Source: Methylobacterium sp.
GTDB lineage: Bacteria > Pseudomonadota > Alphaproteobacteria > Rhizobiales > Beijerinckiaceae
Direction: 5' to 3'
NCBI GenBank assembly: GCA_013823325.1
Contig: PNLY01000022.1
Coordinates: forward strand, 1 to 64,000
Length of the DNA: 64,000 bases
Below the pieces are notes generated by a model. That model saw nothing but the letters and a program-made list of their open reading frames with translations. It did no database searches and had not been told where the DNA came from. Positions 10,635 to 28,833 of the stretch are shown one piece after another. Each line of letters opens with the position of its first letter. Positions within the stretch are counted from its first letter, which is position 1. Position numbers and translations under genes: made by a program.

Positions 10635-11786
10635 TCAGAGCGCCGCGGCGTAGAACTCGAGATAGCGGCGCGTGACCTCGTGCCAGGAGTAGGATGCGAG
10701 GTCGAAGAGGCGCGGGCGCGTATTGCCGGGGTAACGGACGAGATCGGCATAAGCCTGCTCGACGGCAGAGGCAGCCTCGTCCGGATCGGCGAAATCGACG
10801 GTGCGGACGACAGGGAACTTGCTGGCGAGGCCAGCGAAGGCCGCATTGGGCTGGACGACCGGCACGAGGCCGGCGCTCATCGCCTCGACCAGAGCAAGGC
10901 CGAAACCCTCGAACTCCGAGGCGGAGACGAAGAGCGAGGCGCGGCTCATCACCTGCCTTGCCGCGGCATCGTCGAGGCCGAGATGAATGGTGACGTTCTG
11001 CTCCATGCCGGCGTCTGCGATCGCCTTGTGCAGCGCTCCTTCCGTCCAGTCCGAGGCGACGCCGAGCATGTCGAGCTGCCAGGATGGATCGCGCCGCGCC
11101 AGGGCCGCCATCGTCGCGATCAGCCGGTCCGGCCGCTTGTTCTTGGAGAAGCGGCCGATGCTGACCAGGCGCCGCTGCGGGTCGGGACTGGAGGCGCCGG
11201 CGAACTTGTCGAGGTCGACGCCGTTCTCGATCACCCGGACCTTGCCGGGCGCGAGCCGCTCGAACATGCGGGCATCGTTCGTGCTGCAGCCGGCGATACC
11301 GCGATAGACCTGTGCCGAGAGCCGGGTCGGGCCGTTGAACCAGAGCGTCTTCAGGCCGGCGAAGTCGCTAGTGTGGAAGAAGCCGCCATGGGTGGTGGCG
11401 ACGAGCGGCTTGCGATGCAGCAGCCAACCCAGAGCGAGCGCATCGAAGAAGAAGTCGATCGCGTGGACATGGACGAGATCGGCATCGCGCAGATGCGAGA
11501 AGACCTGAGGTGCGAGCGGATAGCGCGTCGAGCCGCGGAAGGGAATGCGGGTGACGGGGATGCCGTCGATCACCTCGCTCGCCGGCAGGACGAGTTCCGG
11601 CCGCGAAAACAGCCGGTCGAGCGTCACCACGGAAGGCTTGAGGCCGAGCGCCAGCTGCGCCCGGCAGAGATTGGCGACGACGTCTTCCAGCCCGCCGCGA
11701 TTGGGCAGGAACTGGCGCACGACATGGACGATGCGCGTGCCTACTGGCACTGCGGGCGCCGAACGATGGGAGAATGGGGCGGTCAC
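10635..11786 (-). CDS. Glycosyltransferase family 4 (GT-B fold)
   Basis: A 383-residue GT4-type retaining glycosyltransferase acting at the cytoplasmic face of the membrane on a lipid-linked glycan. It has an N-terminal acceptor domain opening with RIVHVVRQFLPNRGGLEDVV, a central SIGRFSKNKRPDRLI and the donor-binding ASEFEGFGLALVEAMSAG motif. The GTG start at 11786 overlaps the stop of the GH5 gene by 4 bp, which decides the start although the frame stays open further. It is the last gene of the five-gene minus-strand exopolysaccharide operon. The transferred sugar is unknown. Confidence 0.9.
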   Translation of the reverse strand: MTAPFSHRSAPAVPVGTRIVHVVRQFLPNRGGLEDVVANLCRAQLALGLKPSVVTLDRLFSRPELVLPASEVIDGIPVTRIPFRGSTRYPLAPQVFSHLRDADLVHVHAIDFFFDALALGWLLHRKPLVATTHGGFFHTSDFAGLKTLWFNGPTRLSAQVYRGIAGCSTNDARMFERLAPGKVRVIENGVDLDKFAGASSPDPQRRLVSIGRFSKNKRPDRLIATMAALARRDPSWQLDMLGVASDWTEGALHKAIADAGMEQNVTIHLGLDDAAARQVMSRASLFVSASEFEGFGLALVEAMSAGLVPVVQPNAAFAGLASKFPVVRTVDFADPDEAASAVEQAYADLVRYPGNTRPRLFDLASYSWHEVTRRYLEFYAAAL

Positions 11787-12811
11787 GATCTGGCCTCCCG
11801 GCCGCAGATGGCGCTTGGCCGCTTCACCTTCAAGCGTTCGATCAGCACCTTCATCTGCGGGCGCTCGCCGGTCTTGGTCGGTTCGAGATTGAAGACATAG
11901 TCCGCCGGCCACCAGGGCCCGGCCCCCCAGGCGGTCCAGCCGAGCCATTGCTGCGGGCTGGCGTCGACCTTCGCCACCATCTGCCGGAGCGCGGTCAGGC
12001 ATTCCGGCTTGTTGGACGCGGCAAACTCGCCGAGGAAGCCGCGACGGCCATTGGCCTTGAGCCAGGCGGTGACGTCGTCGATCGCCTTCAGTGCGCCGGC
12101 CGCGGCCGAGCATTCCGGGGCGCGGCCGGAATAGTCGGCGTCGAGATATTGGTGGAAGTCGTAGGCATAGCGGTCGAGCGGATCGAGGACGCCAAGAAGA
12201 TCGCGGCCATTGTTGCCGACCGGGAGATCGGAGGTCCAGCTATGGGCGCCGCCGAAGGCGGTGCCCGTGACCAGCAGGAGCTGTTTCGCGCCGGCCTTGC
12301 GGATCGCGGCGATGGCGATGTTCTGGATCTTCGCCCAGTTCGCGCTGGTGATGTCGTATGGCTCGTTCATCAGCGAGAAAACGAGTCTCGGCCGGTCGCG
12401 ATAGTGCTCTGCGAGCCTGCGCCAGACATCGGCCAGCGCCTCGGCCTGAAGCTCCTTCGAGCCGAGCTGCTTCTTGGCGTAATAGCCGTAATTATGCAGG
12501 TCGATGATCGCGATCAGCCCGGCCTCGTTGATCCGCCTGACGGTCTGGTCGAGATAGGCCAGCTCCATGATGTCGAGCCCGCCGTTGAGATCAGGCTGGA
12601 TGCGCTCCCAGCGGAAGGGCAGGCGGATGGCGCTGGCGCCGAGCTTGCCGAGCCGCTGGATCGCGGCTTCGCTCGGATAGGTGTAGTCGGTGTCGACCTT
12701 GCCGGGCGTGTCGCCGAATTCGGCGCCCGACAGGTTGACGCCGCGCAGGCAGGTCTCCGCCTGTGCCGGCGTGGCGGCGAGCAGGGCCAAGGCGAATATG
12801 GCCCGCTTCAC
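11783..12811 (-). CDS. Secreted glycoside hydrolase family 5 (endoglucanase-like)
   Basis: A 342-residue GH5 enzyme with a Sec signal peptide (MKRAIFALALLAATPAQAE). The acid/base Glu150 is in FSLMNEPYD and the nucleophile Glu262 in GFLGEFAAS; HNY at 106-108 is the conserved active-site His-Asn region. GH5 includes endo-1,4-glucanases and mannanases. Inside a polysaccharide operon such enzymes usually trim or release the growing chain in the periplasm, as CelC/BcsZ-type hydrolases do in cellulose systems. It overlaps both neighbours by 4 bp. The exact linkage cleaved is unknown. Confidence 0.92.
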   Translation of the reverse strand: MKRAIFALALLAATPAQAETCLRGVNLSGAEFGDTPGKVDTDYTYPSEAAIQRLGKLGASAIRLPFRWERIQPDLNGGLDIMELAYLDQTVRRINEAGLIAIIDLHNYGYYAKKQLGSKELQAEALADVWRRLAEHYRDRPRLVFSLMNEPYDITSANWAKIQNIAIAAIRKAGAKQLLLVTGTAFGGAHSWTSDLPVGNNGRDLLGVLDPLDRYAYDFHQYLDADYSGRAPECSAAAGALKAIDDVTAWLKANGRRGFLGEFAASNKPECLTALRQMVAKVDASPQQWLGWTAWGAGPWWPADYVFNLEPTKTGERPQMKVLIERLKVKRPSAICGREARS

Positions 12812-14592
12812 GGCGCGACGATCCGCATGAGCGCATCCAGCAGCCGGCGCCCGGCTGCAAGATGCGTAAAATTGTGGTCGGCGTCGGCGAGCATGGTCAG
12901 CGAGGCATTCGGATAGGCGGAAAGGCCCTTGCCGGCCTCGCCGAAATAGGTCTCGAGCTCAGCCAGGCCGACATCGCCATCGGCATAGAGCAGCGAGAGT
13001 TGGACATTTCGCGCCGCGAGCGTGGCGAAATGACGATGGCACTGATGATGGAGCCGGCCATGCTTGGTCAGGCGCCCGAGAACGGGCGCGAGCTTGACCG
13101 AGAGCCGCTTGCGATAGCGCCAGATCAGATAGCGCCCCGCCGGTCCGACGCGGAGCTTGCCGGTGAGCAGGCGGCGCAGCCCGTCCTTGCGGGCGAGCGT
13201 CGCGCCGAGATCACCGGCGCTGCGATGGGCATAGCGGATCGCATCCTCGACGCTCTCGTCGGGGTCCCAGACGAAGCGTTCATTGTTGACGATGACGAGG
13301 CGGCGGATGCGCGCGTCGACGACGGCGGCGTGGAAGGCGGCATAGGCGCCGCTGCAGCGCCCGATCAGGACGGGCGCATCGAAGCCGCGCGCATGCATGG
13401 CGTCGATGGCGAGGCGGACATCGTCGATCTGCGCCTGCGAATAGAGGATTTCCTCCGGGCCATCGGCAGCGATCCCGCTGTCGCCGACGCTGCTGGCGTC
13501 GAAGCGCAATGAAGCGACGCCGCGCCGGGCGAAGGCGCGCGCCTGGATGACGCTGACCCGGGCCCAGCCGATATGGTAGTCGCGCCCGGCATTGACGAAG
13601 ATGATGGGCTCGCGTGCCGCCGGCCCGAGCGGCTCGCAAAGCACGCCGAAGAGCCGGCCATCCGGGCCGAAGCGGATCGGCCGCTCGACGAAACCGTCGC
13701 CGAGCAGGCCCTCGGCCGGGCCAGGCAATTGGGCCGTCCCGGTCACCGCGGAGCCGGCGGCGGCAGGCGCCGCCTGCTCGGCGATCCAGTCGACGATCCC
13801 CGTGATCGTCGCCTTGGGCGGACGAGCCGCGGTCGGGTCGGTGGTTAGCGTCTCGTAGCCGTCATAGTCGCGCTGCCTCACCGCGGCGCCGAGGCCGGTG
13901 AGCGCCTCCGCCAGGGCCGCATCGCCACCATGGCCTGGCCGCGACAATAGCAGCACCTGCTCGGATGGCGCCTGTTGGAGCGCGCTTGTGCCGAGCGTCG
14001 CGATCGCCGGCAGGCGGCCGGGCGCGATGCGCAGGCCCGCCACGGCGCAGCGCGTATCGTCGTCCGGGTCGGTGCCGATGCCGATGCGATCGGAGACGAT
14101 GCGCGTCCAGGCCGAGAGCTCGCGCAGATAGCGCTTGCCGTTGCCGACCGGGGCCATCAGCACGCTGGCGGCGATCGGAGCGAGTTCTTCGGCGAGCTTG
14201 AGCGCCAGCGTCCCGCCGAGCCCCTGGCCGAGCAGGACGAGGCGCTCGCAGCCGCTGGCGCGCCGCAGCAGCTCGGCGGCGGCGCGGATCGTCTCGAACC
14301 AGTCGTCCAGCCCTTGCACATCGGCAGCCTCATGGGCGTCGCCCTGGCCGGGATAGTCGAAGCGCAGGCAGGCAATGCCCTTGTCCGAGATTGCCTGCGC
14401 CAGGCTGCGCCAGGTCGCGCGCAGGCAGAGCTCCTCATAGCCGATGGCGCCGAGCATCAGCACAGCGACCGGGGCGTGGCCGGCATGGAGCATGCCCATG
14501 CTGCGGCCTAAGGTCACCGGCGTGCCGAAGGGCGAGGGAGCCATGCTCGTCTCGCCGGCCGGGTCGATACGATAGGCTGCGGCTACCGTCAT
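12808..14592 (-). CDS. Double-domain alpha/beta hydrolase with non-serine nucleophile elbows
   Basis: A 594-residue protein made of two alpha/beta-hydrolase domains (about 20-275 and 300-590). In the first, the GxSxG elbow reads G-Q-G-L-G, with Gly124 in place of the nucleophile, so this half should be inactive. In the second it reads G-R-C-S-G, placing Cys413 at the nucleophile position, with an Asp near 538-540 and His573 completing a plausible triad. Cysteine at this site recalls the exosortase-A-system-associated hydrolase 1 family, also found in EPS loci, but no exosortase gene is present here. It lies between the flippase and GH5 genes with 4-bp overlaps on both sides. It may add or remove an acyl substituent of the glycan. 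Confidence 0.85.
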   Translation of the reverse strand: MTVAAAYRIDPAGETSMAPSPFGTPVTLGRSMGMLHAGHAPVAVLMLGAIGYEELCLRATWRSLAQAISDKGIACLRFDYPGQGDAHEAADVQGLDDWFETIRAAAELLRRASGCERLVLLGQGLGGTLALKLAEELAPIAASVLMAPVGNGKRYLRELSAWTRIVSDRIGIGTDPDDDTRCAVAGLRIAPGRLPAIATLGTSALQQAPSEQVLLLSRPGHGGDAALAEALTGLGAAVRQRDYDGYETLTTDPTAARPPKATITGIVDWIAEQAAPAAAGSAVTGTAQLPGPAEGLLGDGFVERPIRFGPDGRLFGVLCEPLGPAAREPIIFVNAGRDYHIGWARVSVIQARAFARRGVASLRFDASSVGDSGIAADGPEEILYSQAQIDDVRLAIDAMHARGFDAPVLIGRCSGAYAAFHAAVVDARIRRLVIVNNERFVWDPDESVEDAIRYAHRSAGDLGATLARKDGLRRLLTGKLRVGPAGRYLIWRYRKRLSVKLAPVLGRLTKHGRLHHQCHRHFATLAARNVQLSLLYADGDVGLAELETYFGEAGKGLSAYPNASLTMLADADHNFTHLAAGRRLLDALMRIVAP

Positions 14593-15971
14593 CGGCCGGC
14601 TCCTTCGCTGGCGCGGCCGGGCGGCAGCGGGTCTGGCTTATCTTCAGGCGCGCCGCCGAACAGGAAGGGCCGGAAGAAGGCGGTCGCCATGTTGTCGATC
14701 CGCCATTTCTGCTTGATCCAGTACCAGGCGGCGAGGCTGGAGGCGGTGCTGAAGATTAGCCCGGCGATGGCGATACCCATCAGCCCGCCGACCCGCGCCA
14801 GCGCGTAGAGCAGGCCGAGATAGAGGACGAACATGATCGCCCGCGCGATCAGGAAAAAGCGCTCGCCGCCGCCGATCATCAGCAGCCAGGAGCCGGGGCC
14901 GAAGAAGGCGAGCGAGACTGACATCACGCAGAGCGCGACCAGCACGTTCTCGTGCTGGACGAACTCCGGATTGAACAGATGCAGAATGAAAGGCGCGACG
15001 ACAGCGAGCGCGAGCGCGCCGAGCAAAGAGATGCAGAAGCTGGCGAAGGAGAGCCGCCCGATCAGCAGTTGCGCGCCGGCCGTGTCGGATTTCTGGAAGC
15101 GGGCGGCGATCATCGGGATGCCGACCGTGTCGATCGCCGCCAGCGGCAGCAGGAGCAGCATCGAAATGCGCAGCGCGACGAAATAGAAGCCGGCTTCGTT
15201 GAGGCCGAGCAGCGCGCCGATCAGGATGGTCTCAAGATAGGCAGAGGCCGAGTTCAGCACGTTGTTGGCGATGAAATAGCCGCTTTCGCGGCGCCATTCG
15301 CCATGAGTTTCCGGCGGTACCTGGTCGCGTGCCCTGAGCCAGCTCACCCCTTCGTCCTGGAGGAAGCAAACGCTCTGGTAGAGCGTCGTCGCGGCCAGCA
15401 GGCCGGTGACGATCGCCATCGCGCCCGCGCCCCCGCCCAGGAGGCCGGCGAGCCCGGCGCCGGCGATCAGCAGGATCGAGCTGCCGCGCCAGACGATCTC
15501 GCGCGGCACCAGCGACATGTTGATCCGGCCATGGATGCGGAAATAGTTCTGGAGGTATTCGCTGAGCGCGAAGATCGCCGCGAAGACGAAGGCAAGCCAG
15601 AGATAGTGATAGGTCGGCGGCAGCCGCTCGGCGAAGAGCCAGAGCGGCAGCGCCGCCGCCAGCAGCACGAAGCAGCCGAGCGCGAGCCAGCGCGCGTTGA
15701 CGCCCAGCAGCGCCTGGTTGAGCGGATGGCCGCTCGCTTCGGCCCGGCGGTAATGCTTCACCACCAGGATCTGTTGGCCGAGCACGGCGATCAGCCCGAG
15801 CGCGCTGCCGATCGAGAACAGGAAGACATAGAGCCCGTATTCCGAGGTCGGCAGGAAATGGCTCGCGGCCAGCAGCACCAGGAAGCTGAGCAGCGTGCTG
15901 CTGAAGCGCGACGAGAAGGCCGGCAGGAAGCGGCCGGCGCCGTTCCAGGCGAGATCGAGCAGTTCCCTCAC
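14589..15971 (-). CDS. Polysaccharide flippase-like membrane protein (MOP superfamily)
   Basis: A 460-residue integral membrane protein with about 12-14 hydrophobic segments, starting with FSSTLLSFLVLLAASHFLP and continuing as pairs of helices to the C terminus. The arrangement fits Wzx/oligosaccharide flippases, which move lipid-linked repeat units across the inner membrane. It overlaps the upstream glycosyltransferase and the downstream hydrolase by 4 bp. Together with the polymerase-like and chain-length genes across the divergent promoter it makes a Wzx/Wzy-type pathway likely. Confidence 0.88.
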   Translation of the reverse strand: MRELLDLAWNGAGRFLPAFSSRFSSTLLSFLVLLAASHFLPTSEYGLYVFLFSIGSALGLIAVLGQQILVVKHYRRAEASGHPLNQALLGVNARWLALGCFVLLAAALPLWLFAERLPPTYHYLWLAFVFAAIFALSEYLQNYFRIHGRINMSLVPREIVWRGSSILLIAGAGLAGLLGGGAGAMAIVTGLLAATTLYQSVCFLQDEGVSWLRARDQVPPETHGEWRRESGYFIANNVLNSASAYLETILIGALLGLNEAGFYFVALRISMLLLLPLAAIDTVGIPMIAARFQKSDTAGAQLLIGRLSFASFCISLLGALALAVVAPFILHLFNPEFVQHENVLVALCVMSVSLAFFGPGSWLLMIGGGERFFLIARAIMFVLYLGLLYALARVGGLMGIAIAGLIFSTASSLAAWYWIKQKWRIDNMATAFFRPFLFGGAPEDKPDPLPPGRASEGAGR

Positions 15972-17194
15972 GGCTGCGCCTCCCGCGGCTGCAGGAGGGC
16001 GGTCCCGGCCGGCTTGCCGGCGAGGCCGTCGAAGACGGCGCCATAGGCGGCGGCGATCCGGTCCGGGCTGTAGCGGGCGGCGGCGGCGAGCGCACTGGCC
16101 GATTGCGTGGCGACGAGCGCCCGATCCCTCGCGTAGGCGATGATCTGCTCGGCCAGCGCGGCATCGTCGCCCGGCGCGAACAGGGCGCCGTTGACGCCCG
16201 GCTGGATCGTCTCGGGAATACCGCCGGACCTGGCGCCGATCACCGGAACGCCATGGGCGAAGGCCTCGATCACAACCCGCCCGAACGGCTCGCGGAACAG
16301 CGAGGGGACGGCGAGGACGTCGATGTCAGGCAGGAACGCGTCCGGCTTGGTCCAGCCGAGGAAGCGGGTGTTCTGCGCCGGGAAGCGCTCGGGCAGCGCC
16401 TTGGCATAGTCGCTCTGGCCGGTGCCGGCGATCAGGAACTCGACAGACTGGCCTGCGAGCCGCTGCGCCGCCGCGGCCAGCGTGTCCAGCCCCTTGATGG
16501 GATCGTGGACGCCGATGAAGCCGATGCGCAGCGGGCGCTCGGCCGGCGGCGCCGTGCGGGGCAGGGCGCCGGGCACAGGCGCGATCGCGCCGGGAATGGC
16601 GTGCGTCGTCGCGTTGGGGAAATAGCCGTGCTCGGTGTGGCGGCCGATGATGAAGTCGGTCTCGCCGATCACCGCGTCGACGAAGCGCGAGTTCAGCTTC
16701 TTGCCATAGGAGGTCACCTGGCAGGAGCTGCAGGCGCGCCCACAATTGTCGTTGCCCTTCCACATGCTGCCCTTCCAGCAGAGCAGGAAGGTGCTGCGCA
16801 GGATATGGGCGACCGGTACGCCGCAGCTCTTCGCCGCCGCCCAGGTTGCGACATTGATGTTCTCGATCGAGTCCGTCAGCACGATGTCCGGCCGCAGGCG
16901 CCTGATCTCGCGGCGCATGACGATGAAGGCGCGCGGATTGAAGTTTTCCAGCGCATGCCAGATCGCCTTCTTCCAGCCCGGACGCGGCAGGCGGTAGTTC
17001 CAGTCGATGTTGAGCGAGCGCAGGCGGTGCACCGGCACGCCGTCATAGGTCTCGTGCTTGTCCTCGCCGGAGACGTTGACGACGGTCAGGTCATGGCCGG
17101 CCGCGAGCAGCAGCTTGGCGACGATCATCGCCGAGATCGGCCCGCCGCCGTCGATGAAGGGCGGGAACGCTGCACAGGCCATCAGGATACGCAT
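15968..17194 (-). CDS. Glycosyltransferase family 4, first gene of the EPS operon
   Basis: A 408-residue GT-B glycosyltransferase. The N terminus MRILMACAAFPPFIDGGGP has the Gly-rich acceptor loop; the C-terminal half carries FIGVHDPIKGLDTL and the donor site PSLFREPFGRVVIEAFAHG. The middle holds a Cys-rich stretch (CWKGSMWKGNDNCGRACSSC) seen in several GT4 proteins of rhizobial EPS loci. The start at 17194 was chosen by homology to the N-terminal strand; the frame runs further upstream without similarity. It is the first gene of the minus-strand operon, divergent from the chain-length gene across a 424-bp gap. Confidence 0.88.
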   Translation of the reverse strand: MRILMACAAFPPFIDGGGPISAMIVAKLLLAAGHDLTVVNVSGEDKHETYDGVPVHRLRSLNIDWNYRLPRPGWKKAIWHALENFNPRAFIVMRREIRRLRPDIVLTDSIENINVATWAAAKSCGVPVAHILRSTFLLCWKGSMWKGNDNCGRACSSCQVTSYGKKLNSRFVDAVIGETDFIIGRHTEHGYFPNATTHAIPGAIAPVPGALPRTAPPAERPLRIGFIGVHDPIKGLDTLAAAAQRLAGQSVEFLIAGTGQSDYAKALPERFPAQNTRFLGWTKPDAFLPDIDVLAVPSLFREPFGRVVIEAFAHGVPVIGARSGGIPETIQPGVNGALFAPGDDAALAEQIIAYARDRALVATQSASALAAAARYSPDRIAAAYGAVFDGLAGKPAGTALLQPREAQP

Positions 17195-17618
17195 GCTGTC
17201 TGGACTCGTCCTCGTCACGGCGCCTTTGCCGGCCGGCCTTTCCCAAGGGCAGGAATAGCCGGCGCGAGCTAAGCAAAGGTTGGCGTGACCGCGGGATTTC
17301 TTCCTGTTGTAAACGAGGCGTGAACGGGATCGCACAAGCCGCGTGCAAGCTGGCGAGACAGTGCGCCGTTCAAGTGGATTTTCATAAATATTGAACTATC
17401 ACCTGCGGTCCCGGAACGGAATGTTCTTTCGAACTGCTTTGGTTGCTTAGTTAATTTTCCGGGAGGGGAAAGCTCGAATACTTGATCGGAATCGTAATGA
17501 TTCCGTTACCGGAATGTTAACCACGGATCGTCAGGATGCGCGGTGGAATTCCAGCCGAGACCGTCGGCGCGTCCGGCCGCGGATGCGCCGGGCCGGGCGG
17601 GATCGAGGAGGCTTGTGG
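17195..17618. promoter_or_regulatory. Divergent promoter region of the EPS locus
   Basis: A 424-bp non-coding stretch between the two divergent EPS transcription units. It is AT-rich around 17380-17400 and 17445-17460, unlike its surroundings, and contains a perfect inverted repeat CGGAATC-GTAAT-GATTCCG at 17487-17505, followed by a further CGGAAT at 17510-17515. No gene is supported here. The symmetry suggests a regulator site; no specific factor can be named. Confidence 0.55.
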
Positions 17619-19610
17619 GTGTCGGCTGCGTTGGAGGCGGGAGGACGTGATGGCGCGTCGGCGGAAGGCCGCGCCTCCGCTGCTTTCAGCCTGTCCGAAC
17701 TGCTCAAGCTGTTGCGCCGCCGCCGTCGGCTGGTGATCGCCAGCGCTGCCGTCTGCCTGCTGTTTGCACTCGCTTATCTCGCGGTGCAGGTCCCGGTCTA
17801 CCGCGCCACCGCCGAGCTGCTGGTCGATCCGCAGGCGCTGCAGGTCGTCGGCAAGGACATCGTGCGCACCGACACCTCCGCCTCGATCGATTTCGCCAAT
17901 GTCGACAGCCAGGCCCTGGTGATGACCTCCACCGGCGTGCTGCGGCAGGTCATCGACGAACTCGACCTCGAGAACGATCCCGCTTTCGTCCGGCCGCCGG
18001 GGCTGGTCTCTCGCCTGCTCGGCCGCCTGGTGCAGCCGACGCCGGAGCAGCGCCTGGCCCAGGCGGTCGATGCGCTCAAGCGCGCGATCGTGATCCAGCG
18101 CGTCGACAACTCGCTCGTCTTCCGTATCACCGTCTCGCATCCGCAGGCGCAAAAGGCCGCCGACATCGCCAATGGCCTGGCGCAGGTCTATTTCCGCCAG
18201 GGCAATGACGGGCGCCGTGCCGTGGTCGAGCGTGCCAACACCTCGCTGATCGGTCAGATCGCCGGCCTGCGCACGCAGCTCGACGAAGCCGAGCGCGCGG
18301 TCCAGAACTTCCGCAGCCAGCACAGCCTGGTCAGCACCGGCGAGGGCGGTCTGATCATCTCGCAGCAATTGCGCGATCTCTACGGCCAGATCAGCCAGGC
18401 GGAGGCCGAGCTTGCGCGCCAGCAGGCCAGGCGCGACCAGCTCGCCCGCTATCAGAGCCGCGATCCCCTGTCCGACACGCTGCCGGAGGCGCTCACCTCC
18501 TCGGTGGTGACCTCGCTCAGGGGGCAATACGCACAGAGCGCGCGCGAAGCGGCGAGCCTTGCCCAGACCCTTGCGCCGCAGCATCCGCGCCTGATCGAGA
18601 TCCGGGCCGAGCTCGCCGAAACGCGCAGGCTGCTGTCCGGAGAACTCGCCCGGCTGCGTTCGACGGTGCAGGAAAGCTATCGCCAGACCGAGGCCAACCT
18701 CGGCAATCTCAGGAAGCGGGCGACGGAGCTGACCAAGTCGCAGGAGGTCAGCGGCGCCGCGCAGATCAAGCTGCGCCAGCTCGAGAGCGAAGCCGAGGCA
18801 GTGCGCACGGTCTACAGCGCCTCGCTGCAGCGGGCCAAGGAACTGGAGCAGCAGAAGCGGATCGAGACCAATAATTCGCGCATGCTCTCGGAAGCGGTTG
18901 CGCCGGCACAGCCGACCAAGCCGCCGGCCCCGCTTGTCCTCGCCGCGGCCCTGCTCTTCGGCGCCTGCGCCGGCCTCGGCCTCGCCTATCTCCTGGAATG
19001 GCTGCCGTCGTCGCGGATCCTGCCCGAGCGGTTGAAGCCGCTGGCGCCGTTGACGCCCGAAGCCGCCGGCCAGGCGATCGGTGTCGGCACCGTGGTGTCG
19101 CTGCCGGGCGACACCGCTCGCCGCGAGGAGGCGCTCGCGCCGGTGACGCGCCTGCTACAGCGGACGCTGGGCTCGCATCTGCCGGCCTCGGTGATGATCG
19201 CCGGCTCGGTCGACGACGCGACGCTGGCGGCGCTCGCCGAGCATCTCGCCAACAGCCTGGCGGCGCATGGCGAGAGCGTGCTGCTCTGCCAGGACGGCTC
19301 GGGCCGCGACATGAACATCCGCCGGATTGAGCCGGCCGCCTCGACCACGGCCCGGCCGGGGCGGCGGCGCAATTTCATCATCATGCGGCAAACCCCGTCT
19401 TCGGACGGCAAGGCCGGCGCCCGTCCGGATGCGATCGTCCTCGCCTCGTCCCTCGCGGGCGAGACGCCGCGCAGCCTGGTCGACCAGGCTGCGGCGATCG
19501 ATCCGGCCGGCGAGCACATCGTCGCGCTCGTCGTCCCCGAGACGACCGGCGCAGGCGCGCGCGGCCTGGCGTCGCGCTGGCTACGCCGTCCGGCGCAGGC
19601 CGCGGCGTGA
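17619..19610 (+). CDS. Exopolysaccharide chain-length/transport protein (Wzz/GumC type) with relict kinase domain
   Basis: A 663-residue inner-membrane polysaccharide co-polymerase. It has a first membrane helix near residues 35-55 (VIASAAVCLLFALAYLAV), a long periplasmic coiled-coil Wzz domain, and a second helix (LVLAAALLFGACAGLGLAYLL) near 445-465. The C-terminal cytoplasmic part of about 190 residues is laid out like a BY-kinase, but where Walker A should be it reads MIAGSVDDATLAALAEHLAN, with no GKS/T, and no Tyr cluster follows. The GTG start at 17619 has a GAGGAG site 8 bp upstream; the longer frame from 17514 adds only Arg-rich residues. Its stop overlaps the polymerase gene by 4 bp. 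Confidence 0.88.
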   Translation: MSAALEAGGRDGASAEGRASAAFSLSELLKLLRRRRRLVIASAAVCLLFALAYLAVQVPVYRATAELLVDPQALQVVGKDIVRTDTSASIDFANVDSQALVMTSTGVLRQVIDELDLENDPAFVRPPGLVSRLLGRLVQPTPEQRLAQAVDALKRAIVIQRVDNSLVFRITVSHPQAQKAADIANGLAQVYFRQGNDGRRAVVERANTSLIGQIAGLRTQLDEAERAVQNFRSQHSLVSTGEGGLIISQQLRDLYGQISQAEAELARQQARRDQLARYQSRDPLSDTLPEALTSSVVTSLRGQYAQSAREAASLAQTLAPQHPRLIEIRAELAETRRLLSGELARLRSTVQESYRQTEANLGNLRKRATELTKSQEVSGAAQIKLRQLESEAEAVRTVYSASLQRAKELEQQKRIETNNSRMLSEAVAPAQPTKPPAPLVLAAALLFGACAGLGLAYLLEWLPSSRILPERLKPLAPLTPEAAGQAIGVGTVVSLPGDTARREEALAPVTRLLQRTLGSHLPASVMIAGSVDDATLAALAEHLANSLAAHGESVLLCQDGSGRDMNIRRIEPAASTTARPGRRRNFIIMRQTPSSDGKAGARPDAIVLASSLAGETPRSLVDQAAAIDPAGEHIVALVVPETTGAGARGLASRWLRRPAQAAA

Positions 19611-20863
19611 CCAGGCCGGCGGCGATGGCCGATGGCCTCGATCCGGCCCGTCCGATGCCGGTCCTGCCGCTCGTGCTGCTGATCGGCGCGCTCACCTTCA
19701 ACATGGCGTTGTGCTTCATCAACACCAACGTCATGGGCATCAACGACACCATGGTGATGGGCTGCGAGGTCGTGCTGGTCGCGGCCGCGCTCTATCTCGG
19801 CCTCGGCCGCAACGCCGCGCCCTATCTGCTGCTGGCGGTCTTCATCTCCTACGCCGCCATGCTGATGGCGATGCGCCCGCTGCTCGATCCCAAGGCGGTG
19901 CGCGACTTCCTGATCCCGGTCGCCTTCTATCTGCTCGGCAAGAGCTGCAACGACCCGCGCCTGGCCGATCGCGCCGCCCTGATCAGCGGGATCATCGTTG
20001 TCGTCTTCGGCCTGTTCGAGTTCTTCGCGCTGGACCTCTACGTCACCTATTTCAACATCATCAAATACTATGTCGCGCGCGGCACGGTGGCGCCGAGCGA
20101 CGTCAGCAGCCAGACCGGCGCGCTCTTCGCCAGCGGCCTGCGTCCGGATTCGCGCACCTTGCTGCCTTTCCTCGGGCCGCACCGTGCCTCCTCGGTCTTC
20201 CTCGAGCCGATCTCGACCGGCAATTTCGGCGCGATCCTCTATATCTGGGCGTTGAATCGCCCGCAGATGGCCAAGCGCTGGCTGACCATGGCCGCCGGCA
20301 TGACCGCGATCGTGCTCAGCGACTCCCGCTTCGGCGCCAATGTCTGCATCGTCGCGACGGTCGCCTGGCTGGTCGCGCCGATCACGCCGCGCTTCGTCTG
20401 GCTGGCCGCCCCCTTCGTCATGCTGATCGGCTTCGCCATCTACGGCTTCGTCAGCGCCGAGGTGAACTGGCAGAACAATTTCGCCGGCCGCATGCTCTGG
20501 ACGTCGCGGCTGATCACCTCGCTCTCGCCGGCCGCAGTCTTCGGCCTGTCGCCGGACAAGCCCTTCCTGTCGGATTCCGGCTATGCCTATTCGCTGAACC
20601 AGATCGGGCTCTTCGGCGTCATCGGTTTCTGGAGCCTGTTCATCTTCGCGCCGGAGAAGTCGCCGCGAGCCTGGCGCTTCAAGGTCTGCGTCGCGACCTA
20701 TATCTGCCTGCTGATGATCGTCAGCGACTCCGTCTACTCGATCAAGACGGCGGCCCTGCTCTGGTTCATGAGCGGATCGAGTGATGGCGATGCCGGAGCT
20801 GAGCCTGCGCCGGTGGCCGAGCGCAGCGTGGCCCCCAATTATTCAACCGCCACAGCTGGGTGA
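19607..20863 (+). CDS. O-antigen/EPS polymerase-like membrane protein (Wzy-like)
   Basis: A 418-residue membrane protein with roughly ten hydrophobic helices and a long periplasmic-type loop near 160-215 containing LPFLGPHRASSVFLEP, the place where O-antigen ligase/polymerase family members keep their catalytic loop. It shares little direct motif identity, as is usual for Wzy. The GTG start at 19607 overlaps the chain-length gene stop. The polymerase call rests mainly on topology, loop and position; an O-acetyl or other membrane role is less likely. Confidence 0.75.
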   Translation: MTRPAAMADGLDPARPMPVLPLVLLIGALTFNMALCFINTNVMGINDTMVMGCEVVLVAAALYLGLGRNAAPYLLLAVFISYAAMLMAMRPLLDPKAVRDFLIPVAFYLLGKSCNDPRLADRAALISGIIVVVFGLFEFFALDLYVTYFNIIKYYVARGTVAPSDVSSQTGALFASGLRPDSRTLLPFLGPHRASSVFLEPISTGNFGAILYIWALNRPQMAKRWLTMAAGMTAIVLSDSRFGANVCIVATVAWLVAPITPRFVWLAAPFVMLIGFAIYGFVSAEVNWQNNFAGRMLWTSRLITSLSPAAVFGLSPDKPFLSDSGYAYSLNQIGLFGVIGFWSLFIFAPEKSPRAWRFKVCVATYICLLMIVSDSVYSIKTAALLWFMSGSSDGDAGAEPAPVAERSVAPNYSTATAG

Positions 20864-20877: not shown

Positions 20878-20980
20878 GAGTATTCGCTGCAATCAGCCGT
20901 TTACCACACCTCCAGACACCAAGGCTCGAAGCGCTTACGCCAGTCATTCTATGGCCGGCGCAAGGTAACTTTAAATTTTA

Positions 20981-20998
20981 TGCGTTAGGCCTGACGCA
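20981..20998. promoter_or_regulatory. 18-bp near-palindrome in the leader of the carrier-protein operon
   Basis: TGCGTTAGGCCTGACGCA is symmetric except for one pair. It follows an AT-rich run (TAACTTTAAATTTTA, 20966-20980) that could hold a promoter, 153 bp upstream of the carrier-protein start. It is a possible operator for the aminoacyl-carrier-protein operon. The rest of the 20864-21150 gap shows no gene. Confidence 0.4.
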
Positions 20999-21150
20999 AC
21001 GAACAACACGGCGTCAAACCAACCGACCCAAGCGTCACGGACGGCGATCGCGAGCGCCCTGCGCCAGCGTATGCCGCTGCGCGTCGAGGGCGGAGCCAAA
21101 ACGGGGCTGCACCGCAGCAGCGATGGCATCAGACAGGGCAGGACCGAAAG

Positions 21151-21396
21151 ATGAAGACCAGGATCCGCGAAATCCTCAAGACCACCGGCAAGCTGCCGGT
21201 CGATGTCGCAACCCTCGCCGACGAGGCCGATCTCTACAATGCCGGCCTCACCTCCTTCGGCACCGTCGAGCTGATGATGGCGCTCGAAGAGGCTTTCGAG
21301 GTCGAGTTCCCCGACAACATGATGAACCGGCGCAACTTCGCCTCGATCGCCGCGATCGAGAACGCGATCCGCACCATCCAGAGCGAGCACGTCTGA
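21151..21396 (+). CDS. Acyl-carrier-protein-like aminoacyl carrier protein
   Basis: An 81-residue four-helix carrier protein. Ser35 in AGLTSFGTVELM is the expected 4'-phosphopantetheine attachment site, and acidic residues follow in helix 2 (MMALEEAFEVEFPD). It is not the housekeeping AcpP, whose site reads DSLDTVEL. It is the first gene of a tight five-gene run and is three genes from an amino acid:[carrier protein] ligase, so it is the probable acceptor of an activated amino acid. Its stop and the next ATG overlap as TGATG. A phosphopantetheinyl transferase is not in the window. Confidence 0.92.
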   Translation: MKTRIREILKTTGKLPVDVATLADEADLYNAGLTSFGTVELMMALEEAFEVEFPDNMMNRRNFASIAAIENAIRTIQSEHV

Positions 21397-22631
21397 TGAC
21401 GACGCTCGCCCGCCTGGCCGATGCCGGCTATCAGCTGACCGCCGAGACATCGGGCGCCAGCGCCGAGGCGCAGAAGGCGATGATCGCCAAGGCGCGCAAG
21501 ATCGCGAAAGTCGCGGCCGAGCACGCCGGCGATGTCGACGCCAGGTCGCGCTTCCCGCACGAGGCCTTCGAGGCCCTGAAGCGCGAGCGCCTGCTGGGGA
21601 TCATGATCCCGGCGGCCCATGGCGGCGAGGAGGCCAGCCACGCGACCATCGCCGAGATCTGCTCGGTGCTGGCCCAGGCTTGCGCATCGACCGGCATGAT
21701 CTACGCAATGCACCAGATCAAGGCGTCGAGCCTGGTCGTGCATTGCAATGACGATCCCTGGCATGCCTCCTTCATGGCGCGCATCGCCCGCGAGCAGCTG
21801 CTGCTCGCCTCGGCCACCACCGAAGGCGGCGGCGTCGGCGGTGATTTGCGCTCGTCGATCTGCGGCGTGGTGCGCGAGGGCGACGATTTCACCCTCGACA
21901 AGGAAGGCTGCCTGATCTCCTACGGGGCGCAGGCCGACGCCATCCTGATCACCTCCAGGCGCACGCCCGAGGCGCCGCCTTCCGACCAGGTCATGTCCGT
22001 CCTGACCAAGGACCAGTACACGCTGGAGCGCAGCGCCGCCTGGGACACGATGGGCATGCGCGGCACCTGCTCCGACAATTTCACCTTCTCGGGGCGCGCT
22101 CCGGCCGCGCAGATCATCCCGGTGCCCTTCGCCGAGATCGCGGCGCAGTCGATGCTGCCCAACGCGCATCTGCTCTGGGCCTCGGTCTGGTACGGCATCG
22201 CGGCCGAGGCCGTCGCCCGCGCCGAAGGCTTCGTGCGCAGCGAGGCGCGCAAGCGCCCGGGCTCGACCCCGCCGAGCGCCCTGCGCCTGGCCGAACTGCT
22301 CGCCCGGCTGCAGCAGTTCAAGGCGTTGATCGTCGCCGGCCTCGATCGCTATGAGCGCGCCCGCGGCGATGCCGACGAGCTCTCCTCGATGGGTTTCGTC
22401 GTCGCGATGAACAGCATCAAGGTCGTGGCCTCGCAGAGCGTCGGCGAGATCGTGATGCAGGCCTTCCTGATCTGCGGCATCCAGGGCTATCGCAATGACA
22501 GCCCGGCGAGCCTGGCCCGTTTGATGCGCGATGCGCTCTCGGCGCCGATCATGATCAACAACGACCGAATCCTCGGCAACACCTCCAACCTGCTGGCGGT
22601 CTACAAGCACGACCCCAGCCTTTCCAGGTGA
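21396..22631 (+). CDS. Acyl-CoA dehydrogenase family flavoprotein
   Basis: A 411-residue member of the FAD-dependent acyl-CoA dehydrogenase family, with N-terminal helices ([20 protein letters not shown]), a middle beta domain ([13 protein letters not shown], then [13 protein letters not shown]) and C-terminal helices ending [19 protein letters not shown]. The usual catalytic Glu near the C terminus is not obvious. In carrier-protein systems such enzymes oxidise acyl or aminoacyl groups while held on the carrier, for example prolyl-S-PCP to pyrrolyl-S-PCP; that role is inferred here from position. The start at 21396 overlaps the carrier-protein stop. Confidence 0.88.
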
Positions 22632-22635
22632 TCGC

Positions 22636-23556
22636 ATGTGCCAGAACTGCCCCCAGCCGCAGGGCTTCCTTGCGGAACTGATCGATAGCGGCCTGCTGAT
22701 CGACACCGGCGTCGACGGCCTGTATGGCCGCAGCGGCTTGTTCGAGGAGGTCATCGCCCGCTTCGACGACCTGATCACCCGCCATGGCGGGAAGGACGGC
22801 GCCGAGGTCGTACGCTTCCCGCCGGCGATGAGCCGCAAGCATTTCGAGAAGAGCGGCTATCTCAAGAGCTTCCCGCAACTCGCCGGCACCGTGCATTCCT
22901 TTGCCGGCGACGAGCGTGCCCATGCCCAGTTGCTGCACAATTTGGCTGACGGCGTCGACTGGACCGACGGGCAGATCTCGACCGAGGTCGTGCTGACCCC
23001 GGCCGCCTGCTACCCGCTCTATCCGGTTGTCGCCAAGCGTGGCGCGCTGAAGGCGGAAGGCGCGCTGTTTGATCTCCAGTCCTATTGCTTCCGGCACGAG
23101 CCCTCGAAGGACCCGGCCCGGATGCAGCTCTTCCGGATGCGCGAATATGTCCGCTTCGGCACGCCCGAGCAGGTCACCGAATTCCGTGCGACCTGGCTGG
23201 AGCGCGGCCAGGAGATGATGGCCTCGCTCGGTGTGCCCTTGAATCTCGACGTCGCCAACGATCCGTTCTTCGGCCGCGCCGGGCGCATGCTTGCCAACAA
23301 CCAGCGCGACCAGCGCCTGAAGTTCGAGCTGCTGATCCCGATCGAGAGCGAGGAGAAGCCGACCGCCTGCCTCTCCTTCAACTACCATCAGGACCATTTC
23401 GGCACGACCTGGGGCATCCAGACCGCTGCCGGCGAGACTGCGCACACCGCCTGCGTCGGCTTCGGCATGGAGCGGGTCGCGCTCGCTCTGTTCAAGCACC
23501 ACGGCTACGACGTCGAGCGCTGGCCGGCCGCGGTCCGCAACGTGCTCTGGCCGTGA
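22636..23556 (+). CDS. Amino acid:[carrier protein] ligase (seryl-tRNA-synthetase-like)
   Basis: A 306-residue class II aminoacyl-tRNA synthetase catalytic core without a tRNA-binding arm, as in the aaCP ligases described from Bradyrhizobium and Agrobacterium. These activate a small amino acid with ATP and load it on the phosphopantetheine of a carrier protein. Zinc ligands expected in the family are present as Cys125 (TPAACYP), Glu170 ([10 protein letters not shown]) and Cys273 (HTACVGFG); motif 2 includes CFRHE and motif 3 [11 protein letters not shown]. It lies 4 bp after the dehydrogenase gene and overlaps the DUF1839 gene by 4 bp. Family assignment is strong; the amino acid loaded (Gly or Ala in known members) is not readable with certainty. 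Confidence 0.93.
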
Positions 23557-24575
23557 GCACGATGACGGCCCAGCAAAAGATCGCCGCGCCCGCCGCCATG
23601 GCGGGCCGGCTCCTGCCGGTCGATCCGCTCGCCTATGACAGGCATGCCATGCATGCCGGCGAGCGGCATTGGCCGCAGACCAATTGCTATGCCGATCTCT
23701 GGATCGAGATCCTGCATGCGCTTGGGCTGGAGCCGGCGGCTGCCTTCGGCTTCACGATCACCCAGGATTTCGAGGGCGACCAGTTCACCTTCTTCAAGCC
23801 GCCGCTCGACGATCTCGAAGCGCTCTACGGCCTCAAGGTGACCGAGCTTGCGCTCTATGACGAGCTGATCGGCCATATCGAGCAGCAGATCGGCCTCGGC
23901 CGCCTCGTCCTGCTCGAACTCGATTCCTTCTACATGCCCGATACCCGCGGCGTCTCCTATCGCGACAGCCACGGCAAGACGACGATCGCGGTGAACCGGC
24001 TCGACCGCGCCGCTCGCGAGCTCGACTATTTCCATAATGACGGCCTGCACCGGGCCGAAGGCGAGGATTTCGACGGCCTGTTCCGGCTGCTGCCGGGGCA
24101 GATGCGCGAGGACACGCTCTTCCCCTATGCCGAGATGGTGCGCCTGCCGCAGCGGCGGCCGGATGAGGCGGCCTTGCGCGCGACGGCGCTGAAACTGCTC
24201 GCCCGCCATGTCGCGCGCCGGCCGAGCGACAATCCCGTCGCGGCCTTCCGCGTCGTTGCGACCACGCAGGCCGAAGCGCTGGCCGAGCGGCCGGGTGCGG
24301 CCTTCCATCACTACGCCTTCAACACGCTGCGCCAGCTCGGCGCCAATTTCGAACTGCTCGCCAGCCATCTCTCCTGGCTTGGCCAGAGCGTGGATGGACT
24401 GGATGCTGCCCGCGATGGCTCCCTGCGAATCGCCGAGGGTGCCAAGGTGGCGCAGTTCCATCTTGCCAGGGCGATGAAGCAGAAGCGCTTCGACCGCTTC
24501 GACGCGACGCTTGCGGGACTCATCAGCGAGCACGATCAGGTCAGCGAGGCGCTTAGGCAGCGCTTCCCCGGCTGA
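23553..24575 (+). CDS. DUF1839 family protein
   Basis: A soluble 340-residue protein of unknown function, recognised as DUF1839 from the conserved N-terminal [16 protein letters not shown] and the region [21 protein letters not shown] and [10 protein letters not shown]. No signal peptide or membrane segment is present. DUF1839 genes accompany aaCP ligases in other rhizobia, so it may accept or process the aminoacyl group on the carrier protein. The GTG start at 23553 is chosen because it overlaps the ligase stop; an ATG at 23562 is equally possible. It ends 3 bp before the glycosidase gene. Confidence 0.85.
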
Positions 24576-24578
24576 GCC

Positions 24579-27062
24579 ATGGCCCGCATCGTCGCGCGTA
24601 GCGGAGAACGGGTAGAGCCGCTCGCGGGCTGGTCCTGGCTCGCGACGGCTGCCAATGCCGCCGCGACGCCCGCCGATCTGTCTGAGGGCGGCGACTGGCA
24701 GGAAGCCGCGGTGCCCGGCACGGTCGCCGGCACGTTGCGCGCGCTCGGTCGGCTCGATGATGCCAGCGCCAATGCGATCGGCCAGCAGGATCACTGGTAT
24801 CGGACACGGCTGACGGAAGCCCTGAATGGACGCTTGCGTTTCGAGGGGCTGGCGACCGTCACGGAAATCTGGGTCGGTGGCGTCAAGCAGGCCGACAGCG
24901 CTTCGATGTTCGTCCCCGTCGACCTCGCTGTCGATTGTCCGGCCGGAACCGAGATCGCGCTGTGCTTCCGTGCGCTGGCACCGAAGCTTGCCGCCGCGCC
25001 CCGCCGCTCCCGCTGGCGGCCGGCGATGATCCAGCCCAACGGCCTGCGCTGGTTCCGCACCAGCGCGCTCGGCTCGATGCCGGGCTGGTGCCCGCCCGGC
25101 CTGCCGATCGGACCGTATCGTCCCGTGCTGCGGATCGAGAGCGAGGCGAATGCGCCGAAGATCGAATCCGTCGATCTGCGCACCCGCTATGATGGGCAGA
25201 CCGGCACCGTCGCGCTATCGGTCACGCTGGCCGCGAACTCGCGGCTGCCGCTTAGGGCGGTCATGCGCTGCGCCGGCGGCGAGACGGCCTTGCACGCAGA
25301 TGGTGACGGTCAATTAGCCGGAACATTGTCGCTCCCCGGCATCGCGCCCTGGTTCCCGCATACCCATGGCGAGCCGGTGCTGCACGATCTCACCCTACTG
25401 CTCGATGGCGAGACGGTCGAACTCGGCCGCGTCGGCTTCCGCTCGCTCGAGGTTGACCGCGGCGACGATGGCGAGGGCTTCGGCCTGATCGTCAACGGCG
25501 TACCGGTGTTTTGCCGCGGCGCCTGCTGGAGCAATGCCAATGTCACCACGCTGGCCGGTGGCCGCGGGTCTTACGAGCCCTGGCTCCGGCTGGCGCGCGA
25601 TGCCGGCATGAACATGATCCGCCTGCCGGGCGTGATGACCTATGAGGACGACGCCTTCTTCGCGCTCTGCGACGAGCTTGGCATCATGGTCTGGCAAGAG
25701 ATGATGCTGGCCAATTTCGACTATCCGCAGGGCGATGCCGGCTTCCGCGCCGCCATCAAGGCGGAAGCCGAGGCACTGCTGGATTGCACACAAGGCTCGC
25801 CCAGCCTCGCGGTGCTCTGCGGCGGCAGCGAGGTCTTCCAGCAATCGGCGATGCTAGGCGCGCCGCCGGAAGCCTGGTCCGGCCCGATCTTCGACGAGGT
25901 CCTGCCGGAGGCGGTCGCCACTTTCAGGCCCGACATCGCCTATGTCCCGAACTCGCCCTCGGGCGGGCCGCTGCCCTTCGTCGCCGACAAGGGCGTGACG
26001 CATTATTACGGAGTCGGCGCCTATATGCGCGGTCTCGACGATGCCCGCCGCGCCAATGTCCGCTTCGCCGCCGAGAGCCTCGCCTTCGCCAATGTGCCGG
26101 AAGAGGTCTCGCTGCGTTCCGGCAAGCCGCCGGCGATCACCCATCATCCCGACTGGAAGCGCGCCGTGCCACGCGATGCCGGCGCCTCCTGGGATTTCGA
26201 GGATGTGCGCGACCATTATCTCGAACGGCTCTACGGCCTCGAACCGGCGCGTCTGCGGCGCGAGGACCCGGAGCGCTATTTCGCCCTATCACGCGCAGTT
26301 GTCGCCGAGGTGATGGAGGAGACCTTCGCCGAATGGCGCCGGCCAGCCTCGCCGACGCGAGGGGCGCTGGTTTGGCTGCTGCAGGACCTCCAGCTCGGCG
26401 CCGGCTGGGGCGTCATCGCCAGTGACGGCGAGCCGAAATCGGCCTGGCACGGGCTCGCCCGTGCTTTCCGTCCGGTCCAGCTCACGCTCACCGACGAGGG
26501 CGTCAACGGGCTCAGCCTGCATGCCCTGAACGAGCGTCCGGAGCCGCTGGCTGCCACCGTCGAGCTGACCTGCTGGCGCGCAGGCGAGGTCGCGGTGATC
26601 AAGGCGAAGCGCGAGATCGCGCTCGCTCCGCGCGCGGCGGTGACGCTCTCGGCCTTCGACCTGATCGGCCGCTTCTTCGACATCGCCTATGCCTATCGCT
26701 TCGGCCCGCCCGGCCACGACGTGACCTCGGCCGTGCTGCGCGATGCCGCGAGCGGCGCGGTGCTGGCCGAAGCCTTCCACTTTCCGCTCGGGCGCGGCCA
26801 TGAACGCCATCAGTGCGGGCTTGCCGCAAAGCTGGAGCGCGAAGGCGACGACTGGAGCGTGGTGATCTCGACCCAGCGCTTCGCGCAATCGGTCGAGATC
26901 GTCGATCACGCCTGGCGGCCGGAGCGGAGCTGGTTCCATCTCGCGCCAGGCGAGCCGCGACGGGTCCGTCTGCTCCGCCGCGTAGGCGCGAGCGGCGAGC
27001 CGTCAGGTGAGGTTCGCGCGGTCAACGCACTCGACCGGGGCGGCTACGCGGCGGGGGCGTGA
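24579..27062 (+). CDS. Glycoside hydrolase family 2 protein (beta-mannosidase-like)
   Basis: An 827-residue GH2-type enzyme. It has an N-terminal jelly-roll sugar-binding domain, an Ig-like domain, a TIM barrel beginning near FCRGACWSN, and C-terminal beta domains. The acid/base Glu418 lies in LCGGSEVFQQ, where beta-mannosidases have GNNE, and the likely nucleophile Glu499 is in RFAAESLAFANVP. No signal peptide is seen, so it would act in the cytoplasm unless exported otherwise. It is the last gene of the carrier-protein operon, which links that operon to glycan metabolism. Substrate and anomeric specificity are inferred only from family. Confidence 0.85.
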   Translation: MARIVARSGERVEPLAGWSWLATAANAAATPADLSEGGDWQEAAVPGTVAGTLRALGRLDDASANAIGQQDHWYRTRLTEALNGRLRFEGLATVTEIWVGGVKQADSASMFVPVDLAVDCPAGTEIALCFRALAPKLAAAPRRSRWRPAMIQPNGLRWFRTSALGSMPGWCPPGLPIGPYRPVLRIESEANAPKIESVDLRTRYDGQTGTVALSVTLAANSRLPLRAVMRCAGGETALHADGDGQLAGTLSLPGIAPWFPHTHGEPVLHDLTLLLDGETVELGRVGFRSLEVDRGDDGEGFGLIVNGVPVFCRGACWSNANVTTLAGGRGSYEPWLRLARDAGMNMIRLPGVMTYEDDAFFALCDELGIMVWQEMMLANFDYPQGDAGFRAAIKAEAEALLDCTQGSPSLAVLCGGSEVFQQSAMLGAPPEAWSGPIFDEVLPEAVATFRPDIAYVPNSPSGGPLPFVADKGVTHYYGVGAYMRGLDDARRANVRFAAESLAFANVPEEVSLRSGKPPAITHHPDWKRAVPRDAGASWDFEDVRDHYLERLYGLEPARLRREDPERYFALSRAVVAEVMEETFAEWRRPASPTRGALVWLLQDLQLGAGWGVIASDGEPKSAWHGLARAFRPVQLTLTDEGVNGLSLHALNERPEPLAATVELTCWRAGEVAVIKAKREIALAPRAAVTLSAFDLIGRFFDIAYAYRFGPPGHDVTSAVLRDAASGAVLAEAFHFPLGRGHERHQCGLAAKLEREGDDWSVVISTQRFAQSVEIVDHAWRPERSWFHLAPGEPRRVRLLRRVGASGEPSGEVRAVNALDRGGYAAGA

Positions 27063-28666: not shown

Positions 28667-28833
28667 GATCGCTCGTCCTGTCCTTCGGCGCATTTGCGCT
28701 CGCTTGCTCAATAAAGCGAAGCTTCGAGGCGGGGAGGGGCGCGGCCTCGATTTCACTTCGCGAAACGCTGCGCAGGGCGCCGAGCCGAGTTCCGTCATTC
28801 GACTAGTTTCACGCCCTCGAACGGGCGGGGCGC

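Follow-up and report, generated by a model that had tools for sequence, protein, structure and literature searches.

Positions 1 to 64,000 of contig PNLY01000022.1 from Methylobacterium sp. (the window) contain a cassette of five genes, encoding a carrier protein, a flavoprotein, an amino acid:[carrier protein] (aaCP) ligase derived from aminoacyl-tRNA synthetases (aaRSs), a DUF1839 protein and a glycoside hydrolase family 2 (GH2) glycosidase. We propose, with moderate confidence, that this cassette N-aminoacylates an amino sugar in a carrier-dependent manner, the sugar in most cases being part of a Wzx/Wzy-type surface polysaccharide. An earlier note on this DNA had suggested that an aminoacyl, or dehydrogenated aminoacyl, group held on the carrier decorates a glycan. 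The aminoacyl part gained support from the CcbD-like fold predicted for DUF1839, from the enrichment of Wzz genes near the cassette, and from the adjacency of GH2, whereas the dehydrogenated variant was not supported.

The membership of the DUF1839 protein in its family was confirmed by PF08893, well above the gathering cut-off (Table 1). With a predicted model (pLDDT 88.0), the only PDB fold matches at E ≤ 0.001 were chains of CcbD, AziU2/U3, and CtaG, which scored far above other solved structures and placed the model within the CcbD/LmbD-type overall fold. CcbD is an amide synthetase that transfers an amino acid from its carrier protein to an amino sugar. Residues Cys45, His140, His161, and Glu122 of DUF1839 were near-invariant across the aligned loci. 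The lincosamide synthetases CcbD and LmbD differ from the cassette protein in sequence (12% identity), in being loaded by a stand-alone A-domain rather than by an aaRS-like ligase, and in their product, a soluble antibiotic. For CtaG (closthioamide) and AziU2/U3 (azinomycin), donors and acceptors differ from those proposed here, and we know of no glycan context for either. A published account describes a C(T/S)H triad in DUF1839 (PMC10318531).

To determine how constant the cassette is, we compared 88 loci: 80 retained out of the at least 588 that a genome scan gave, and 8 on plasmids. Of these, the closest named relatives of the window locus were L043 to L056, mostly Bosea. All five genes were present in 85 of the 88; the incomplete loci were L168 (DUF1839 alone), L059 (at a contig end), and L071 from Roseibium (without the ligase). 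Of 20 further loci, 19 had all five, and L173 had no GH2 match. GH2 adjoined the cassette in named alpha- and betaproteobacteria, and this nearly universal adjacency upheld the earlier placement of GH2 at the end of the operon. In an even sample of the class (385 genomes), DUF1839 occurred in five, our own genome counted, and directly followed the ligase in all five, and the ligase scored above its cut-off in 10. Therefore, DUF1839 goes with the ligase, which also exists without it. The solitary DUF1839 gene (L168:9962-10948) lies on a Rhizobium plasmid typed as conjugative, with no ligase, carrier, or GH2 within 10 kb. In Roseibium denhamense (L071:8759-11005), the carrier, flavoprotein, DUF1839, and GH2 genes are present, and no ligase lies between flavoprotein and DUF1839 within the locus. 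Cupriavidus (L162:14986-15939) and genome G977 (L183:12256-13185) each have an additional DUF1839 gene near the cassette, on the strand opposite to it.

In the window, all five genes listed in the earlier note were found on one strand with family matches. Because they are codirectional and separated by -1, 4, -4, and 3 bases, in order, they very likely form one operon (21151 to 27062). Its start had been placed at 20981, which is noncoding; the carrier gene begins at 21151, 287 bases past the end of the putative polymerase gene.

Active-site residues were counted from tblastn alignments over 122 sequences, with sequences that did not cover a position omitted; these alignments may span a stop, and the counts include some genomes twice (e.g., L058 and L188, apparently one contig). 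The phosphopantetheine site of the carrier, Ser35, was Ser in 108 of 108 aligned loci, and the zinc ligands of the ligase (Cys125, Glu170, and Cys273) were kept in 114 of 114, in agreement with what had been read from the window. GH2 was nearest by sequence to solved beta-mannosidases, and its acid/base and nucleophile, Glu418 and Glu499, whose positions were set by eye against 5n6u, were kept in 107 of 107. The ligase scored above the curated cut-off of NF005479, which places it among the aaCP ligases, and its nearest solved chains were 4h2w and 3mey. The nearest chains to the carrier were of the Agrobacterium Atu2571 type (92 bits), whereas the carrier from the Bll0957 entries reached only 27 bits. 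A 2022 review tabulates Gly, Ala, or Ser as substrates for relatives of the ligase and describes the role of aaCP ligases as still unknown (PMC9437257). At the Bll0957-type loci examined (L198 to L202), the ligase and a flavoprotein occurred in five of five and a divergent carrier in four of five; in contrast, DUF1839 and GH2 were unmatched at these five loci and the two-domain hydrolase described below was unmatched in the five genomes. L201 and L202 also lie near Wzc-like genes, L202 being in a same-genus genome without DUF1839 (G010).

The flavoprotein belongs to the acyl-CoA dehydrogenase fold, but its profile and fold matches were divided between acyl-CoA dehydrogenases and flavin monooxygenases (model pLDDT 75.4). 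Relative to what we take to be the canonical dehydrogenase motifs, a hand alignment indicated that the two catalytic Glu positions are occupied by Ala/Ser/Cys/Thr and by Ile/Val in 112 of 112 aligned loci; the second position falls in a low-confidence part of the model. These changes argue against an alpha,beta-desaturase, and alpha,beta-desaturation by this protein appears unlikely. A glycyl group has no beta-carbon. The assignment as an acyl-CoA dehydrogenase gene held for fold and family, with the canonical base seemingly lost. A dehydrogenated aminoacyl group is unsupported because both Glu positions are altered and because dehydrogenases and monooxygenases rank equally in the fold search.

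A sixth component, missing from the earlier list of five, is encoded inside the neighboring polysaccharide block: a two-domain alpha/beta-hydrolase. In a first set of 61 relatives (15 with DUF1839 and 46 without), it was detected at E ≤ 1e-20 in all 15 genomes with DUF1839 and in none of the remaining 46 (12 of 12 versus 0 of 25 within the same genus). A second set gave 54 of 54 with DUF1839 versus 2 of 26 without, and the pooled counts were 69 of 69 versus 2 of 72 (Fisher test values were computed with relatedness ignored). Because hydrolase and cassette lie on different contigs in G046, their link is more than proximity. At the nucleophile elbow, the C-half had Cys in all 62 aligned loci, and the N-half (n = 67) had Gly in 49, Arg in 14, and Ser in 4. 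For the window protein and two distant ones, the best NCBIfam matches were the XrtA/exopolysaccharide (EPS)-associated hydrolases, hydrolase 2 (TIGR03101) for the N-half and hydrolase 1 (TIGR03100) for the C-half. The sixth protein differs from these in that all matches were below cut-off, its halves are fused, and its N-half mostly lacks a Ser nucleophile. In G191 and G376, the two genomes that have the hydrolase but no DUF1839, the carrier, ligase, and hydrolase genes lie on one strand within about 5 kb, and DUF1839, GH2, and the flavoprotein were unmatched within the 20-kb stretch; these three genes are perhaps a minimal form of the system. At L196, an unassigned 1.7-kb piece lies between hydrolase and ligase. 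Beside the hydrolase gene at L187 (G460), a polysaccharide deacetylase and a sugar-transfer-associated ATP-grasp protein are encoded at 14591-15283 and 17165-18385.

These components suggest a reaction sequence. The aaRS-like ligase would activate a small amino acid and load the dedicated carrier, and the flavoprotein may oxidize the carrier-bound aminoacyl group. Given the fold and conserved residues of DUF1839, its Cys45 would accept the acyl group and then, in a ping-pong reaction like that of CcbD, hand it to the amine of a sugar. Judging from its co-occurrence and its Cys nucleophile, the hydrolase would carry out a second acyl-transfer or proofreading step on the same carrier-bound intermediate, and GH2 might trim or recycle the glycoside. 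A fuller version, in which a class of surface polysaccharides (rhizobia, Bosea, and Burkholderiaceae) is N-aminoacylated by the aaRS-derived loading enzyme and a lincosamide-synthetase-like amide synthetase, with a further acyl-transfer step by the constant Cys-nucleophile hydrolase, is tentative, and we give it slightly less than even weight.

The polysaccharide side of the proposal was examined by gene neighborhood. The window's polysaccharide genes recur near the cassette in relatives, with varying order and strand; in G516 they are costranded and run into the cassette. Other glycosyltransferases (WecG, GumK, and Bac_transf types) occur near cassettes elsewhere. Most simply, the cassette would be a portable module that tailors a variety of glycans. 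Across 58 DUF1839 genomes, a Wzz gene lay within 20 kb of the cassette in at least 33, versus 1.4 expected if placement is random (largest count in 200,000 simulations, 9; counts use 150 of the 183 matches). Among the matches listed, this distance was found in 10 of 12 genomes of family f20, 9 of 10 of f213, 4 of 4 of f16, and 4 of 4 of f259, which is outside the class, and further in f1 (2 of 5), f11 (1 of 4), f207 (1 of 2), and f221 (1 of 1). At E ≤ 1e-50, the glycosyltransferase GT4a was detected in 12 of the 15 genomes that have DUF1839 and in none of the 46 that lack it. Within the genus, the putative polymerase (E ≤ 1e-20) was detected in 11 of the 12 genomes with DUF1839 and in none of the 25 lacking it; weak matches (30%) occurred in G044 and G059, one of which lacks DUF1839. 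The earlier note had the operon follow EPS polymerase genes. A Wzz/Wzc-like gene and the putative polymerase do lie upstream, but the latter is a polymerase by position only because it has no Pfam match and its only NCBIfam match is a weak, below-cut-off one to MreD.

Several observations weigh against the proposal. Adjacency to EPS genes, as first suggested, holds in several families but is not universal: 25 of the 58 genomes had no Wzz within 20 kb among the matches listed (f200, 0 of 7; f92, 0 of 3; f24, 1 of 6), GT4a was unmatched in 3 of 15 DUF1839 genomes, and the putative polymerase was unmatched in 1 of 12. At four annotated plasmid cassettes (two from Azospirillum, one each from Phyllobacterium and Mycetohabitans), no Wzx, Wzy, Wzz, or GT4 appeared in the deposited annotation tables, from which many genes are missing, and the polysaccharide genes of the window had no matches at these sites. 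Near one of these cassettes, at a distance of about 8 kb, a GT9 glycosyltransferase is encoded, and an ArnT-type gene lies at the margin of the stretch around another. Cassettes showed no conserved amino-sugar or deacetylase gene nearby. The single deacetylase used as a query (E ≤ 1e-8) found nothing beyond its own locus in 115 sequences; a later set gave a weak match at L199. GH2 has no evident signal sequence and no obvious place in polysaccharide building. Finally, the match of DUF1839 to CcbD rests on a predicted model at low identity, and a profile of 24 DUF1839 sequences found no CcbD, AziU, or CtaG chain at E ≤ 10.

Some of these observations would suit a different product, a small conjugate of amino acid and sugar, diffusible or intracellular, that resembles lincosamides or mycothiol, with the polysaccharide genes linked by island inheritance only. 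CcbD, AziU2/U3, and CtaG all act in small-molecule pathways (the latter two as we take their roles to be), a cytosolic glycosidase suits a soluble glycoside, and several cassettes have no annotated Wzx/Wzy/Wzz neighbors, one of them lying next to a major facilitator superfamily (MFS) transporter. The four plasmid cassettes in particular keep a soluble product alive. We nevertheless regard it as unlikely, given that Wzz is enriched in several families, that polysaccharide genes remain near despite changed orders and strands, and that GT4a was not found without DUF1839 in the 61 genomes at E ≤ 1e-50.

An acceptor other than a sugar, such as a protein, polyamine, or amino lipid, is less probable still. 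CtaG joins its acyl group to a diamine, and many rhizobial loci encode elongation factor P (EF-P) close to the cassette (matches in 43 of the 115 sequences). However, all 43 matches fell in L060 to L122, with none in the flanks searched from Bosea, Azospirillum, Mycetohabitans, Cupriavidus, and Caballeronia, and the conservation of GH2 throughout points to a glycoside. Upstream of the cassette in many Rhizobium-group loci, EF-P is accompanied by a class II tRNA-synthetase homolog and a radical SAM protein, which we take to be EpmA-like and EpmB-like (e.g., L111:4597-5163, minus strand; L088:5207-6271; L110:6272-7324). Least probable of all, in our estimate, is a hydrolytic role for DUF1839, which would free the amino acid as a thioesterase or peptidase, the cassette yielding a free modified amino acid. 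This would be in keeping with a papain-like fold, since many papain-like enzymes hydrolyze (PMC10318531); however, the nearest solved folds are not peptidases, CcbD makes an amide, and the glycosidase would be left without explanation.

N-aminoacylation of a surface glycan, the reading we favor, is not a new idea: the hypothesis of the earlier note is nearly that of a 2010 note added in proof (PMC2922099). That note tied a ligase paralog of Agrobacterium (the operon around the carrier Atu2571) to an acyl carrier protein, a redox enzyme predicted to be a monooxygenase, the conserved uncharacterized protein Atu2574, a glycosidase, and liposaccharide genes, and predicted that the operon amide-ligates an amino acid to a cell-surface amino sugar, with the conserved protein as the ligase. 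Judging from the gene set, Atu2574 is presumably the DUF1839 protein. In its text, that note names no alpha/beta-hydrolase and gives no structural model. New here are the CcbD-type fold, the constant Cys-type hydrolase, the possible three-gene form, the counts of polysaccharide linkage, and the apparently missing dehydrogenase base. If the proposal is correct, tRNA-synthetase relatives whose job is unsettled gain a testable role, and the chemistry of surface glycans in rhizobia and related bacteria is extended by an aminoacyl group. The link to the CcbD fold and the list of six partners define a concrete reaction to reconstitute from purified proteins.

Table 1. Genes of the cassette, the sixth component, and the adjoining polysaccharide block in the window
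Feature	Position	Strand	Family match or remark
Carrier protein, 81 aa, phosphopantetheine site Ser35	21151..21396	+	PF00550; NF005480, 113.9 bits (cut-off 72)
Acyl-CoA-dehydrogenase-fold flavoprotein, apparently without canonical catalytic Glu	21396..22631	+	PF02771, PF00441
aaRS-derived aaCP ligase, Zn ligands Cys125/Glu170/Cys273	22636..23556	+	NF005479, 510.8 bits (cut-off 357)
DUF1839, predicted CcbD-like papain-fold amide synthetase	23553..24575	+	PF08893, 417.4 bits (gathering cut-off 22.5)
GH2 beta-mannosidase-like glycosidase, catalytic Glu418 and Glu499	24579..27062	+	PF22666
Two-domain alpha/beta-hydrolase; Ser nucleophile mostly missing from N-half, Cys (GxCxG) as nucleophile of C-half	12808..14592	-	
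GT4 glycosyltransferase GT4a	10635..11840	-	PF00534, PF13439; start chosen inside longer open frame
GH5 glycosidase, apparent signal sequence (by eye)	11783..12811	-	PF00150
Wzx-like flippase	14589..15971	-	PF01943
GT4 glycosyltransferase GT4b	15968..17335	-	PF13692, PF00534
Wzz/Wzc-like chain-length determinant	17514..19610	+	PF02706, PF13807
Putative Wzy-like polymerase, by position	19607..20863	+	No Pfam match

In the gap before the carrier gene, a block at 20890-20985 was kept in the six Bosea loci compared; it comprises GTTTACCACA followed by an AT-rich motif at 20964-20980, which occurs once in the window when up to 3 mismatches are allowed. This block is perhaps the cassette's own promoter or operator. 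Beyond the GH2 gene, an aromatic amino acid lyase is encoded on the minus strand (27212-28690); of the 80 named loci, 3 had a match to it, each of them from Bosea.

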